Of a DNA stretch of 33,578 nucleotides, positions 13,488 to 29,499 are shown in pieces. Origin of the DNA: Clostridia bacterium (lineage in GTDB: Bacteria; Bacillota; Clostridia; DUPQ01). A program made the position numbers and the translations under genes. Where the stretch lies: contig JAFGIJ010000002.1 of the NCBI GenBank assembly GCA_016929655.1, forward strand, positions 1-33,578, given 5' to 3'. Each line of letters begins with the position of its first letter. Position 1 is the first letter of the stretch. The notes below the pieces were generated by a model. The model worked only from the letters and a program-made list of their open reading frames with translations, had not been told where the DNA came from and ran no database searches.

Positions 13488-14273
13488 ATGAAAAAAGAAA
13501 TTAATTTTACTTCGCTTAGGAAATTCAACATATTCATGGGTCTTCTGCATTTGGTCCAAGGTTCTGCAATGCTTTTATTTGCTCTGCTAATCGATCAGGT
13601 CAAGAATTTCAGAACTCCTGTCTGGTCCTATTTCCTTACATTTGACCAAACTCAGATGAGGCTTGTTACAGACCCGCAGAAACTTTTTACAGTTCCCTTT
13701 GGCATTTTGGTATCTGTATTCCTATTCATGTCAGCAGCGGCACACTTTATCATAGCTGCTCCGAAGACCAATGATATTTATAACAGGGATTTGCAAAAAG
13801 GTATCAACAAATTCAGATGGTATGAGTATTCACTCAGTTCATCCTTGATGATATTCCTTATTGCAATGCTTTTCGGAGTATATGACATCGGTGCACTGAT
13901 ATTGATTGTTCTAATCAATGCCACAATGAATCTGTTTGGACTTGTTATGGAAGAAATAAACCAGTTCAAGGAAAAGACCGATTGGAAACCGTTTATATTC
14001 GGTTCGCTTGCCGGTCTTGGTCCCTGGATTGTAATAGCATTGAACGCATTCGGCAATGCGGACCCGGCTGAAGTTCCATGGTTTGTATATGCAATTGTAG
14101 GATCATACTTTGTATTCTTCAACCTCTTCCCCATCAATATGATTCTTCAGTACAAAAAGGTTGGGAAATGGGCAAACTACATTTACGGAGAAAGAGCATA
14201 CATCATTCTCAGTCTGGTTGCTAAATCAGTACTGGCCTGGCTTGTATTCTCCGGTGTAATGCAACCTATGTAA
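13488..14273 (+). CDS. Heliorhodopsin
   Basis: 261 aa with seven hydrophobic segments. It carries heliorhodopsin hallmarks: LRKFNIFMGLLHLVQG in TM1, WYEYSLSSSLMI in TM3 (E113, the expected Schiff-base counterion), and ERAYIILSLVAKSVLAW in TM7 with the retinal-binding lysine K246. H21 and H86 correspond to the two internal histidines described for heliorhodopsins (mapping by inference). Heliorhodopsins bind retinal, sit inverted relative to type-1 rhodopsins (N-terminus inside) and are generally not ion pumps; a sensory or signalling role is proposed. The gene is monocistronic, with its own promoter and terminator. The SD GAAAGGA lies 12 nt upstream of the ATG. No retinal-forming dioxygenase or carotenoid gene is in the window. 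Confidence 0.95.
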   Translation: MKKEINFTSLRKFNIFMGLLHLVQGSAMLLFALLIDQVKNFRTPVWSYFLTFDQTQMRLVTDPQKLFTVPFGILVSVFLFMSAAAHFIIAAPKTNDIYNRDLQKGINKFRWYEYSLSSSLMIFLIAMLFGVYDIGALILIVLINATMNLFGLVMEEINQFKEKTDWKPFIFGSLAGLGPWIVIALNAFGNADPAEVPWFVYAIVGSYFVFFNLFPINMILQYKKVGKWANYIYGERAYIILSLVAKSVLAWLVFSGVMQPM

Positions 14274-14289: not shown

Positions 14290-14321
14290 AAAGTCGTTCC
14301 AGAGTGAGCGACTTTTTTTTT
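14290..14321 (+). terminator. Rho-independent terminator of the heliorhodopsin gene
   Basis: AAAGTCGTTC and GAGCGACTTT form a 10-bp stem (one G-U) with a 6-nt loop, followed by an unbroken T-run to 14321. It insulates the heliorhodopsin gene from the next operon. Confidence 0.9.
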
Positions 14322-14327
14322 GATTTG

Positions 14328-14347
14328 TTATTGACATATGTCAATAA
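14328..14347. promoter_or_regulatory. Perfect 20-bp palindromic operator over the -35 box
   Basis: TTATTGACATATGTCAATAA is its own reverse complement. It contains the -35 hexamer TTGACA of the downstream operon, so a bound dimer would block RNA polymerase. The DUF134 HTH protein encoded second in the operon is a natural candidate regulator (inference). Confidence 0.7.
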
Positions 14348-14358
14348 CTGGGTATAAT
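14331..14358 (+). promoter_or_regulatory. Promoter of the DUF5320-DUF134-MinD-Mrp operon
   Basis: Consensus TTGACA (14331-14336), 16-bp spacer, consensus TATAAT (14353-14358). This is the strongest promoter match in the window. The first ATG with a good SD is at 14404. Confidence 0.85.
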
Positions 14359-14403
14359 GAAGATATAAAGAGCATATGTTCAAAACCAAAGGAGGTGAAA
14401 CAA

Positions 14404-14712
14404 ATGCCTGCAAGAAATGGAACAGGACCAATGGGTCAGGGCCCCATGACAGGAAGAGCAATGGGATTCTGCACTGGTAACAGAGTTATAAACAACCGCT
14501 TTGCCTATGGCAGAGGTATGGGTTTAGGCCGTGGATTGGGATTTGGCCGAGGAATGGGCTTGAGAAGAGGCTATGGACAGTATTATAATGACCTTGGACC
14601 CTTAGAATATAAATCTGAGAAAGATTTCCTGGCCGAGCAGAAAGAATTTCTGAAGCAACGCCTGGATATAATCAACGGCCAGTTGGAAGATCTGGTTGAA
14701 GACAGCAAGTAG
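14404..14712 (+). CDS. DUF5320 family protein
   Basis: 102 aa from the ATG at 14404, preceded by AAAGGAGGTG. The track's upstream start at 14338 lies inside the promoter. The N-terminus GTGPMGQGPMTGRAMGFC is the DUF5320 signature, followed by a Gly/Arg/Met-rich segment (GRGMGLGRGLGFGRGMG) and a charged helix (FLAEQKEFLKQRLDIINGQL) that may form a coiled coil. The function is not known; in anaerobes the family commonly accompanies NifX-like and ferredoxin-domain MinD genes. It is the first gene of the operon. Confidence 0.85.
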   Translation: MPARNGTGPMGQGPMTGRAMGFCTGNRVINNRFAYGRGMGLGRGLGFGRGMGLRRGYGQYYNDLGPLEYKSEKDFLAEQKEFLKQRLDIINGQLEDLVEDSK

Positions 14713-14752
14713 CAGGGGCCCCCTCCCCTGCTTCTTTTAAGAAGGAGTAAGA

Positions 14753-15139
14753 ATGCCAAGACCACGTAAATGGAGAAAAGTCTGTTGTCTGCCTGAATGG
14801 AGAGTCTTTGGTCCTGTAGGCCCGGGAAAGGGACGGGCAAACATGCAGGTCATGACTGTGGATGAATATGAAACCATCCGTCTGATAGATTATGAAGGCA
14901 TGACACAGGAAGAGTGTGCAATAAGTATGAATGTTGCCCGCACAACCGTTCAGCGAATCTATAATGATGCCCGCAAAAAAATATCTGCAATCTTTGTTGA
15001 CGGGGATCTTATAAGAATAGAAGGCGGAGATTATAAACTATTTACAGAAATCGAGCATCAACAGGGGTATGGGAGCTGCAGACGTCACAGAGGACAGAAC
15101 AGAAATTACATCGAAATTGATGATGAGGAGAACGATTGA
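14753..15139 (+). CDS. DUF134 (UPF0251) family HTH DNA-binding protein
   Basis: 128 aa. The N-terminus [15 protein letters not shown] is the family signature. Residues of about 38-75 ([20 protein letters not shown], then [19 protein letters not shown]) form a sigma-70 region 4-like helix-turn-helix. The C-terminus is acidic. The two adjacent Cys near the N-terminus could bind a metal or Fe-S group. It probably regulates this operon through the palindrome at 14328-14347 (inference). AAGGAG lies upstream, and the stop overlaps the next start by one base. Confidence 0.85.
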
Positions 15140-15513
15140 TGATAGCAGTATTACCGGTTGAAACAAATAATATGGGAGCATGTATAAATATCTCCCTTGG
15201 AAGAACTCCGTTTTTCCTGATATACGACACAAATACGAACCACAGTCTTTTTATTGAAAATACAGCGGCAGGAAGTCAGGGTGGCGCGGGAGTCAAAGCT
15301 GCGCAGCTCATGGTCGACAATGGAGCGGATGTTGTCATAGCTCCGGCCTGTGGGAAAAATGCTGCTGATGTGCTTATGGCATCAGGCATAAAAATTTATA
15401 AGAGCAGCGGTTGTTCAATCAAGGATAATATAACTGCATTAATTGCAGGAACGCTTGAAGAATTAAGTGATATTCATCCTGGCTTTCATAACCACGGAGG
15501 TTCAGGAAATTGA
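15139..15513 (+). CDS. NifX/NifB-C-terminal-like (dinitrogenase cofactor biosynthesis fold) protein
   Basis: 124 aa from the ATG at 15139 (GAGGAG upstream). The IAVLPVE start, the G-rich AGSQGGAGVKAAQLMVDNG loop, VVIAPACGKNAADVL and a final IHPGFHNHGG belong to the dinitrogenase iron-molybdenum cofactor-binding family. In non-diazotrophs these small proteins are thought to carry Fe-S or Mo-containing clusters. It lies between DUF134 and the first MinD ATPase. There are no nifHDK genes here. Confidence 0.85.
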   Translation: MIAVLPVETNNMGACINISLGRTPFFLIYDTNTNHSLFIENTAAGSQGGAGVKAAQLMVDNGADVVIAPACGKNAADVLMASGIKIYKSSGCSIKDNITALIAGTLEELSDIHPGFHNHGGSGN

Positions 15514-16346
15514 AAATAGCAGTTTTAAGTGGAAAAGGTGGCACAGGCAAGACCTTTGTATCAGTGAATCTTGCCTTCTCCGCAGGAAATTGCATGTACA
15601 TTGACTGTGATGTGGAAGAGCCAAATGGTCACATTTTCTTCAAGCCACAGATTACAGATTCACATGATATAACAGTGGATATTCCCTTGATTGACAGCAG
15701 TAAGTGCACAGGCTGTCGTCTTTGTGTGAATTTCTGCAAGTTCAATGCCCTGGCATATATCAAGGGACATGTGGAAGTATTTGATGATATCTGTCATTCC
15801 TGCGGTGGTTGTTCATTGCTTTGTCCTGAAGAGGCAATTTCCGAAAGAAAGAAATCCATAGGAAAAATTCAATCAGGTATTTCCGGCAATGTTACTGTAG
15901 TTACAGGTATTCTAAACCCCGGAGAAGAATCCGGTGTTCCAATAATCAAGGAACTCCTGAATGGGAAAAATGATGGTGATATTTTCATAGACTCACCTCC
16001 GGGAAGTTCATGCACTGTAATGGAAAGCATCAGAGATGCTGATTATTGTATTCTGGTCGCAGAACCTACTATCTTTGGAATGCATAATCTCAAGATGGTT
16101 CTTGAACTTGTCAATATTTTCAAAAAGCCCCATGGTGTGGTCATCAACAAAACCCAGGGGGAATTTCCGGCCTTGAAAGAATTTCTTTCCGGAAATGATA
16201 TCGAGGTGCTTATGGATATACCCTATGACAACGAACTGGGCAAAATCAATTCAATGGGGCTGATAGCTGCTGATGAAATATTGGAATACAGGGTGTTGTT
16301 TTCCTCTTTGCTGAAAAAAGTATATAAGGAGGCAGGCCATGTTTAG
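15510..16346 (+). CDS. MinD-type P-loop ATPase with inserted 2x[4Fe-4S] ferredoxin domain (copy 1)
   Basis: 278 aa, TTG start (GGAGG 9 nt upstream, 4-nt overlap with the previous stop). Deviant Walker A GKGGTGKT lies at residues 8-15. An inserted ferredoxin domain has two CxxCxxCxxxC motifs at C66/69/72/76 and C95/98/101/105. The Walker B region is IFIDSPPGSS. The family is related to NBP35/Mrp ATPases and is probably an Fe-S or metallocofactor carrier, not a cell-division MinD. It is the paralogue of the next gene, with which it overlaps by 8 nt. Confidence 0.9.
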   Translation: MKIAVLSGKGGTGKTFVSVNLAFSAGNCMYIDCDVEEPNGHIFFKPQITDSHDITVDIPLIDSSKCTGCRLCVNFCKFNALAYIKGHVEVFDDICHSCGGCSLLCPEEAISERKKSIGKIQSGISGNVTVVTGILNPGEESGVPIIKELLNGKNDGDIFIDSPPGSSCTVMESIRDADYCILVAEPTIFGMHNLKMVLELVNIFKKPHGVVINKTQGEFPALKEFLSGNDIEVLMDIPYDNELGKINSMGLIAADEILEYRVLFSSLLKKVYKEAGHV

Positions 16347-17220
16347 ACTTCTTGTATTAAGTGGCAAAGGCGGTACAGGAAAAACAACAGTTTCAAGTGC
16401 CCTTATCAAGTTATCTGACGCCAAAGCCTATGCTGACTGTGACGTTGATGCGCCGAATCTTCATCTGGCAGTGGAACATAATGGTTTGAAACTGCAGTCA
16501 GATTTCAATGGAATGGGAAAAGCCTGGATAGACCAAAATCTTTGTATCAACTGCGGTATCTGCATGAACAATTGTAAATTTGATGCCATCGAATTCAATT
16601 CAACCTATGCGGTTGATTTCTATTCCTGTGAGGGATGTTCGGTTTGTGCTGCCACTTGCCCTGCAGGAGCAATTCAAATGACACCCGCGGTTGCTGGAAA
16701 GCTCGATTTATATAAATCAGATAAAATTTTTTCCACTGCCAGATTGAACATGGGATTCGGCAATTCCGGTCTCCTCGTAACAGAAGTAAAAAAGAATCTT
16801 GATAGATATACAAAAGACTCTGACTTTGCCGTCATTGATGGTTCCCCGGGAATCGGGTGTCCGGTTATTGCTTCAATCAGTGGTGTTGATATGCTTTTGC
16901 TTGTTACTGAACCTACCTTGTCAGGTATTTCTGATATGAAAAGGATCATTGATACAGCCCGTGGTTTTTATCCTGAAATTATTGTGTGTATAAACAAATC
17001 GGATATAAACACAAAAAATACTGAACAAATTGAAATGATATGCAGGGATATGAACATTCCGGTTGTCGGTAAAATACCCTATGATCCCACTGTATCAGTT
17101 GCATTGAACAATGGAATCAATATTACAGATTTTGATTGCCCGGCTTCTGCAAAATTGAAGGAGTTGTATTATAATACTTTTGGACTAATAAACAAAAGAA
17201 TCAAGGAGAACATAGAATGA
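16339..17220 (+). CDS. MinD-type P-loop ATPase with inserted 2x[4Fe-4S] ferredoxin domain (copy 2)
   Basis: 293 aa; ATG with AAGGAGG 6 nt upstream. Walker A GKGGTGKT is at residues 9-16, and cysteines C69/72/75/79 and C97/100/103/107 form two predicted [4Fe-4S] sites. The ATPase core resumes at FAVIDGSPGIG. It is the same fold as copy 1 but clearly diverged, so the two probably act as a heterodimer, as is usual for these tandem pairs (inference). It overlaps the Mrp gene by 4 nt. Confidence 0.9.
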   Translation: MFRLLVLSGKGGTGKTTVSSALIKLSDAKAYADCDVDAPNLHLAVEHNGLKLQSDFNGMGKAWIDQNLCINCGICMNNCKFDAIEFNSTYAVDFYSCEGCSVCAATCPAGAIQMTPAVAGKLDLYKSDKIFSTARLNMGFGNSGLLVTEVKKNLDRYTKDSDFAVIDGSPGIGCPVIASISGVDMLLLVTEPTLSGISDMKRIIDTARGFYPEIIVCINKSDINTKNTEQIEMICRDMNIPVVGKIPYDPTVSVALNNGINITDFDCPASAKLKELYYNTFGLINKRIKENIE

Positions 17221-18059
17221 GTGAAAATTGCGACAATAATTGCAGTTCATGCAGTGAAAACTGCAATGAAAGAACTTCCGAGCAAACTGATTTTACAGCC
17301 AAGCTGCATGAACTAAGCACAGTCAGGAATGTTATAGCTGTCATGAGTGGAAAGGGCGGGGTTGGAAAATCCCTGGTAACTTCCTTAATGGCTGCAAAAA
17401 TGAGAACAGAGGGATATAATGTTGCTGTTCTTGATGCAGATATAACAGGACCATCAATACCAAAGGCATTTGGTATAAAAGAAAAAGTCTTTGGTAATGA
17501 GCTTGGACTTATCCCGGCTAAAAGCAGTACAGGTATAGAAATCATGTCCATTAACCTGCTTTTGGAAAATGAAACAGACCCGGTTGTATGGCGCGGTCCA
17601 TTGATCGGTGGAACGGTAAAACAATTCTGGTCGGATGTGGTATGGAAAGACATTGACTTTATGTTCATAGACATGCCTCCGGGAACAGGTGATGTATCAC
17701 TGACTGTATTCCAGTCATTGAAAGTTGATGGAATCATTGTTGTTACCTCACCTCAGGAATTGGTTTCAATGATAGTTTCAAAGGCTGTCAAAATGGCAAA
17801 CCTTATGCATATACCTATAATCGGTCTTGTTGAAAACATGTCATATATCGAATGCCCGGACTGCGGGAAAAAAATAGAGCTCTTCGGGAAAAGCCATACA
17901 GATGAAGCAGCAAAATCCCATGGTCTGGATGTCCTTGCCAGGATGCCCGTCAGCACAGTAATAGCAGAAGCCTGCGACTCAGGTGAAATTGAAAAGGTAC
18001 AGACCGATTATTTCAATGAACTTACAAAAAAATTAATTGAATTGGAGGAATCAAAATGA
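17217..18059 (+). CDS. Mrp/NBP35 family Fe-S cluster carrier ATPase
   Basis: 280 aa. The N-terminal Cys-rich stretch CDNNCSSCSENC resembles the NBP35 N-terminal cluster site. Walker A is GKGGVGKS (45-52), with DADITGPSIP, the MPPGTGD switch and the family motif VENMSYIECPDC with the bridging CxxC. It assembles or delivers [4Fe-4S] clusters to apoproteins in the cytosol. It is translationally coupled on both sides by 4-nt overlaps. Confidence 0.92.
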   Translation: MSENCDNNCSSCSENCNERTSEQTDFTAKLHELSTVRNVIAVMSGKGGVGKSLVTSLMAAKMRTEGYNVAVLDADITGPSIPKAFGIKEKVFGNELGLIPAKSSTGIEIMSINLLLENETDPVVWRGPLIGGTVKQFWSDVVWKDIDFMFIDMPPGTGDVSLTVFQSLKVDGIIVVTSPQELVSMIVSKAVKMANLMHIPIIGLVENMSYIECPDCGKKIELFGKSHTDEAAKSHGLDVLARMPVSTVIAEACDSGEIEKVQTDYFNELTKKLIELEESK

Positions 18060-18409
18060 AAATAGCCGTAGCAAGCATAGATCAGAATGTTGCAGCCCAT
18101 TTCGGGCACTGTGAGGAGTTTTACATCTTTGAAGAATGTGATGGTAAAATCGCTTCCGGCAAAGCTGTTCCAAATCCAGGCCACAAACCCGGGTTTTTGC
18201 CAAATTTCCTGAATGATCTTGGAATCAACGTCATTATATCCGGCGGCATGGGTGGAGCTGCAGTGTCTATATTCAATGAACATAACATTGAAGTTGTAAT
18301 AGGACCTGCGGGTGATGTCAAGGAAGCTGCAAAGAAGTATCTTGCAGGTGAACTTGAATCAACCGGCTCAGTATGTCATGAACATGAACACAGTGATGAC
18401 TGTCATTGA
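18056..18409 (+). CDS. NifX-like iron-molybdenum-cofactor-fold protein with His-rich tail
   Basis: 117 aa. IAVASIDQNVAAHFGHCEEF is the family signature (the FGHC loop), followed by a GGMGGAAVSIF glycine loop and a C-terminal metal-binding tail rich in Cys and His (CHEHEHSDDCH). It is the second NifX-like protein of the operon and the last gene. It probably binds a metal cluster received from the MinD/Mrp proteins (inference). AAGGTAC or GGAGG precedes the ATG. It converges on uvsE with 9 nt between the stop codons. Confidence 0.88.
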   Translation: MKIAVASIDQNVAAHFGHCEEFYIFEECDGKIASGKAVPNPGHKPGFLPNFLNDLGINVIISGGMGGAAVSIFNEHNIEVVIGPAGDVKEAAKKYLAGELESTGSVCHEHEHSDDCH

Positions 18410-29449: not shown

Positions 29450-29499
29450 CCTAATAATTACGACAGACGTAAATATTTACGTCTGTCGTAATTATTAGG
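29450..29499. repeat. 50-bp perfect palindrome
   Basis: Each base from 29450 to 29499 matches its complement about the centre between 29474 and 29475. The inner part reads GACGTAAATATTTACGTC and the ends read CCTAATAATTA / TAATTATTAGG. It lies between the divergent CPBP and GH4 promoters, 31 bp upstream of the GH4 -35 box. Confidence 0.97.

Follow-up and report, generated by a model that had tools for sequence, protein, structure and literature searches.

The closest solved structure to the proteins of family DUF134 (UPF0251, PF02001), both by profile (E=4e-5) and by fold, is the deoxyribonucleoside regulator DeoR, which was solved on its operator (PDB 7bhy). DeoR has a large effector domain, whereas DUF134 proteins carry either a tail, short and Cys-rich or resembling a zinc ribbon, or a fused NifX domain. 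The helix-turn-helix (HTH) fold is also common to DUF134 and region 4 of sigma factors (SigmaE region 4, 2h27), the DUF134 protein studied here matches the Pfam model Sigma70_r4, and the DNA that is read overlaps the -35 hexamer. Unlike sigma factors, DUF134 proteins have no region 2 and their target is palindromic, which points to a dimer acting as a repressor. The Pfam entry of DUF134 gives no function, and the literature searched, which covered few subscription journals, held annotation-level mentions of the family, with no function, operator or regulon described and no regulator study for the site sequence.

MinD-type ATPases, Mrp and NifX-type domains are part of the gene content of the orp operons (MrpORP or orange-protein) of Desulfovibrio vulgaris. 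A related gene content is found in the operon described here (PMC6345978). The orp operons are activated by sigma54 and the enhancer-binding protein DVU2106 with IHF (PMC3897727), whereas the present operon has a sigma70-type promoter and the DUF134 layout. It is located in the window, which is the whole stretch of 33,578 nucleotides that was analysed (contig JAFGIJ010000002.1 of a Clostridia bacterium), and its features are given in Table 1.

An earlier note had described a perfect 20-bp palindrome on the -35 box of this operon, with TATAAT 16 bp downstream of TTGACA. The palindrome, TTATTGACATATGTCAATAA, is present at 14328-14347 as the core of a longer symmetric site and has no further match with up to three mismatches in the window. 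Both promoter elements were found as well, forming a 12/12 consensus promoter (TTGACA-16-TATAAT). Operator 2, a weak version of the site, lies 38 bp downstream of operator 1, at about +10 relative to the inferred start of transcription, and is found in two other genomes of the genus with its position unchanged. Comparison within the genus shows that the sequence is kept from the palindrome onward, including the second site, and is divergent upstream of the palindrome. The DUF134 gene is the only one of its genome, and its product matches PF02001 over residues 3-95 with 76.8 bits, the gathering cut-off being 27 bits. It is highly likely that the Fe-S/NifX/Mrp operon regulates itself, with the palindrome as its main operator and the DUF134 protein, encoded by gene 2, as its repressor. 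Through the hairpin between genes 1 and 2, DUF5320 could become the product made in the largest amount, with the synthesis of the repressor held down.

Table 1. Coordinates of the promoter region, the operon and the gene upstream of it, as positions in the window.
Feature	Position	Strand	Remarks
Heliorhodopsin gene	13488-14273		directly upstream of the operon; ends in its own terminator-like hairpin
Terminator-like hairpin	14290-14315	+	closes the heliorhodopsin gene, setting the operon apart from it
Operator 1 (putative)	14327-14348	.	perfect 22-bp palindrome GTTATTGACATATGTCAATAAC; also conserved at DUF134 loci
-35 element TTGACA	14331-14336	+	inside operator 1; 12/12 promoter score together with the -10 element
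CATATG core of operator 1	14335-14340		within the 22-bp palindrome
-10 element TATAAT	14353-14358	+	16-bp spacer to the -35 element
Operator 2 (putative), degenerate	14369-14382	.	AGAGCATATGTTCA; CATATG at 14373-14378
DUF5320 gene	14404-14712	+	gene 1 of the operon; PF17253, E=5e-25
Terminator-like hairpin	14711-14732	+	between DUF5320 and DUF134; possible attenuator
DUF134 protein, 128 aa, proposed repressor	14753-15139	+	PF02001, E=2e-21; Sigma70_r4 also above its cut-off
DUF134 helix-turn-helix, residues 52-70	14906-14962	+	predicted helices 52-59 and 63-83
Thr64 codon, proposed specificity residue	14942-14944	+	best predictor of the operator base among the alignment columns
NifX-type (Nitro_FeMo-Co) protein	15136-15513	+	PF02579, E=2e-18; ATG start likely 15139
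MinD-type ATPase with ferredoxin insert, copy 1	15510-16346	+	profile match
MinD-type ATPase with ferredoxin insert, copy 2	16339-17220	+	profile match
Mrp/NBP35 Fe-S carrier ATPase	17217-18059	+	N-terminal part of the MrpORP model (NF041136 positions 1-243), below the model cut-off
NifX-type protein, second	18056-18409	+	C-terminal part of the MrpORP model (NF041136 positions 265-365), below the model cut-off

The loci compared with the window were gathered from its own genus, family and class, together with named genomes and single-species genomes. The start of the recognition helix varies among the DUF134 proteins (ARTTVQ, ARSTVQ, ARGTVQ, SRTTVT, SRGTFQ, SRQTFQ and others). In the ARTT class, 111 sites hold TTGACA, and a -10 element matching at least five of six positions is present in 97 of 109, with a spacer of 16 or 17 bp in nearly all; the background, TTGACA found elsewhere, has a -10 element of that quality in 23 of 104 cases. 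The first site has the consensus rTTATTGACATATGtCannAAc and the second TAAATGACATATGTCA; the distance from the first to the second, which lies downstream, is most often 38 or 39 bp, so the pair in the window has the commonest distance of paired sites at related loci. The site overlaps the core promoter or the transcription start, as is characteristic of an HTH autorepressor, and sites that cover a near-consensus -35 and the region of the start are arranged as for repression. The family-wide overlap with TTGACA and the -10 element and the paired sites at 38-39 bp support the repressor-operator geometry that the earlier note had proposed.

Repression rather than activation is what the geometry of the sites suggests. 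DUF134 could also bind the site as an activator or dual regulator, a possibility that draws on the resemblance of its HTH to the sigma region 4 domain and on the fact that the direction of regulation is unreadable from sequence alone. This is unlikely, given that the sites lie on the -35 and just past the transcription start of promoters near consensus, while the site of an activator is usually found ahead of a poor -35.

The site follows the presence of DUF134. TTATTGACATATGNC is present in 100 of the 392 genomes of the class, and 91 of these 100 carry DUF134, against 157 of the 392 overall (Fisher p=4e-35); among genomes without DUF134 it is found in 9 of 235, near the rate of the reversed-pattern control. 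A genome-wide search with TTGACATATGTCAA allowing one mismatch was too permissive for the definition of a regulon because its reversed-pattern control also gave many matches, and TTATTGACATATGNC, with a control near zero, was used instead.

The base at ±4, which adjoins the CATATG core, was scored solely on half-sites other than the -35 hexamer. Proteins with Thr64 face A in 79 cases and G in 26, while those with another residue at this position face G in 25 and A in 3 (Fisher p=5e-10), Ser, Gly and Gln going with G, and the rule is also seen within the AR-helix subfamily alone (Fisher p=8e-6). Residue 64, the second residue of helix 63-83 in the predicted structure, predicts this base better than any other column of the DUF134 alignment (z=12.8, next 7.7) and again ranks first within the AR-helix subfamily (z=10.4, next best column 5.5), the z-scores being derived from shuffled labels, which do not fully remove shared ancestry. 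Residues other than Thr arose at position 64 repeatedly, at separate places on the DUF134 tree, and in the AR lineage every scorable case with Ser or Gly at 64 has G at ±4. Proteins with the SRGTFQ helix face TGCATATGCA. The 26 Thr64 loci with G indicate that residue 64 is not the sole determinant of the base. The dependence would otherwise be hard to explain and argues for a contact of DUF134 with those bases; a recognition-helix residue that determines the operator base is again what characterizes an HTH autorepressor. On these comparisons, the recognition of DNA by DUF134 is strongly supported.

The same data bear on the ownership of the palindrome by another regulator, such as a Crp/Fnr-type or ArsR-type protein. 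The outer letters TTGAC-N4-GTCAA resemble the Fnr box, TTGAT-N4-ATCAA, and two Crp/Fnr-type genes (L063 and L322) have a similar site upstream, but the centre is fixed (CATATG, with ATAT in most sites) where the Fnr box has a free N4, and neither the co-occurrence with DUF134 in 91 of 100 genomes nor the tracking of the site base by residue 64, above any other DUF134 column, is expected for a foreign regulator. Crp/Fnr or ArsR ownership, which is very improbable, was rejected on the co-occurrence and the residue-base dependence, and DUF134 is kept as the probable binder.

The earlier note had made its proposal depend on the palindrome being found upstream of other DUF134 genes, and it does recur there. 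Every 10-bp palindrome was counted, with no motif given, in the 1-kb flanks on both sides of 225 DUF134 genes, the downstream control having about two-thirds of the upstream bases (148 kb vs 218 kb). The top-ranked palindrome was GACATATGTC, with 89 occurrences upstream and 1 downstream, while GGCATATGCC gave 14 vs 0 and TGCATATGCA 8 vs 1; in the first 127 loci, GACATATGTC had given 60 vs 1. The 89 vs 1 count shows a further mark of an HTH autorepressor, a palindromic site conserved in front of the operon that encodes the regulator. No CATATG site reaching the threshold was found within 1 kb at 12 of the 127 ARTT-type loci, one of which has just 105 bp of upstream sequence and four of which retain degenerate sites. 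In the SRQTFQ class a recognizable site was found within 1 kb at only about 10 of 37 loci.

Taken alone, the symmetry of the 22-bp palindrome departs only slightly from chance. Perfect palindromes of 20 bp occur twice in the window, and at least one was found in 6 of 60 Markov shuffles (mean 0.1); the palindrome rises above chance because it is conserved, not because it is symmetric. Symmetry arising by chance from a consensus promoter or from AT-rich intergenic DNA, which the shuffles make conceivable, is extremely improbable and was rejected on the upstream enrichment and the co-occurrence with DUF134; the site geometry and the residue-base dependence contradict it too, with the second sites, which have no -35 role, and the conserved footprint within the genus also against it. 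The other perfect 20-bp palindrome of the window, AGACGTAAATATTTACGTCT at 29465-29484, has no sequence relation to operator 1.

Roughly 40% of the 392 genomes searched in the class carry DUF134, and the family also occurs in archaeal control genomes and on plasmids of the conjugative kind in Klebsiella, Citrobacter and E. coli. Synergistaceae and Bacillus DUF134 loci also carry sites. On plasmids of Enterobacterales and Aeromonas, the DUF134 gene adjoins a NifX-type gene and the helix reads SRQTL; 189 plasmid records match such pairs, with SLAC1, Dps or thioesterase genes nearby. Three plasmid examples, from E. coli (L330), Aeromonas media (L331) and Morganella morganii (L332), have two CATATG sites each, mostly with G at ±4. 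Six IMG/VR contigs (L324-L329) encode DUF134-NifX (Nitro_FeMo-Co) fusions as one chain of about 240 aa (for example L324:1268-1993 and L328:2501-3226), two of which were confirmed by Pfam, and most have two putative CATATG operators just upstream.

The predicted DUF134 HTH superposes on the DNA-binding domain of operator-bound DeoR with 0.6 Å over 40 residues and on SigmaE region 4 on -35 DNA with 0.9 Å. A Foldseek search with the predicted DUF134 domain, which is small, gave no match below E=0.001. DUF134 as a sigma factor was rejected, the protein having 128 aa, region-4-like matches only and no region 2. DUF134 presumably binds as a dimer, which is putative because the structure was predicted as a monomer.

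From the sequence comparisons it is very probable that DUF134 proteins act as switches, binding the palindromic site and lowering the expression of their own operon. In a dimer, each of the two recognition helices, beginning at residue 63 within ARTTVQ, would enter one half of the site (TTGACAT and ATGTCAA), and residue 64 would choose the base adjoining the CATATG core. DUF134 would cover the -35 box when bound at operator 1 and the transcription start when bound at operator 2, so that RNA polymerase would be blocked and the DUF5320-DUF134-NifX-MinD/Fer4-Mrp-NifX operon would stay low. Release (or loading) of the repressor would presumably depend on the state of a cluster of the Fe-S or Mo-Fe type, which may be read via the conserved cysteines of DUF134 or via a partner or fused NifX domain. 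Cys11 is found in 122 of 127 ARTT-type proteins and at least two cysteines past residue 95 in 121 of 127, and the DUF134 protein of the window lacks one of the common C-terminal cysteines. These cysteines, the NifX/Mrp neighbours and the NifX fusions suggest cluster sensing, and the signal may well be the metal-cluster status; the fusions suggest that their NifX domain is the sensor. A wider proposal is tentative: DUF134 proteins might be widespread cluster-sensing repressors that mimic sigma region 4, with a dimeric HTH reading two inverted TTGACA-like halves in competition with sigma for the same letters and a NifX-type domain, neighbouring or fused (L324-L329), as the sensor. With a defined target of 14-22 bp, a specificity residue, a pair of operators and a regulon of small size, the role of DUF134 is open to immediate testing, and these features offer a way into the control that anaerobes exert over the handling of Fe-S or Mo-Fe clusters by NifX/Mrp proteins, apart from nitrogen fixation.

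Sites away from the DUF134 gene, in genomes that carry one, precede NifX-type genes at L280, L286, L307, L310 and L320, with a further unlisted DUF134 gene close by not excluded at L310 and L320, and DUF5320 genes at L288 and L305. Single unlinked sites precede DsbD/CcdA, C_GCAxxG_C_C and DUF364 genes, and the remaining ones have no evident connection to the NifX/Fe-S pathway. The unlinked sites at matching genes, the genome co-occurrence, the dependence of the base on residue 64 and the CATATG pairs in other phyla point to DUF134 as the binder, as the earlier note had proposed.

Matches with 2-3 mismatches elsewhere in the genome of the window (L002) were rejected as targets, the genes nearby being unrelated. 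Sites of the TTGACATATGCC type are found upstream of Crp/Fnr-family genes (L063:1495-1520, and L322 at 334 on the reverse strand), and these are either additional DUF134 targets or sites of another regulator. A 26-bp perfect palindrome, TACTTATTGACATATGTCAATAAGTA, is found at L086:1495-1520 upstream of a DUF364 gene (putative heavy-metal chelation), unlinked to the DUF134 gene of that genome.
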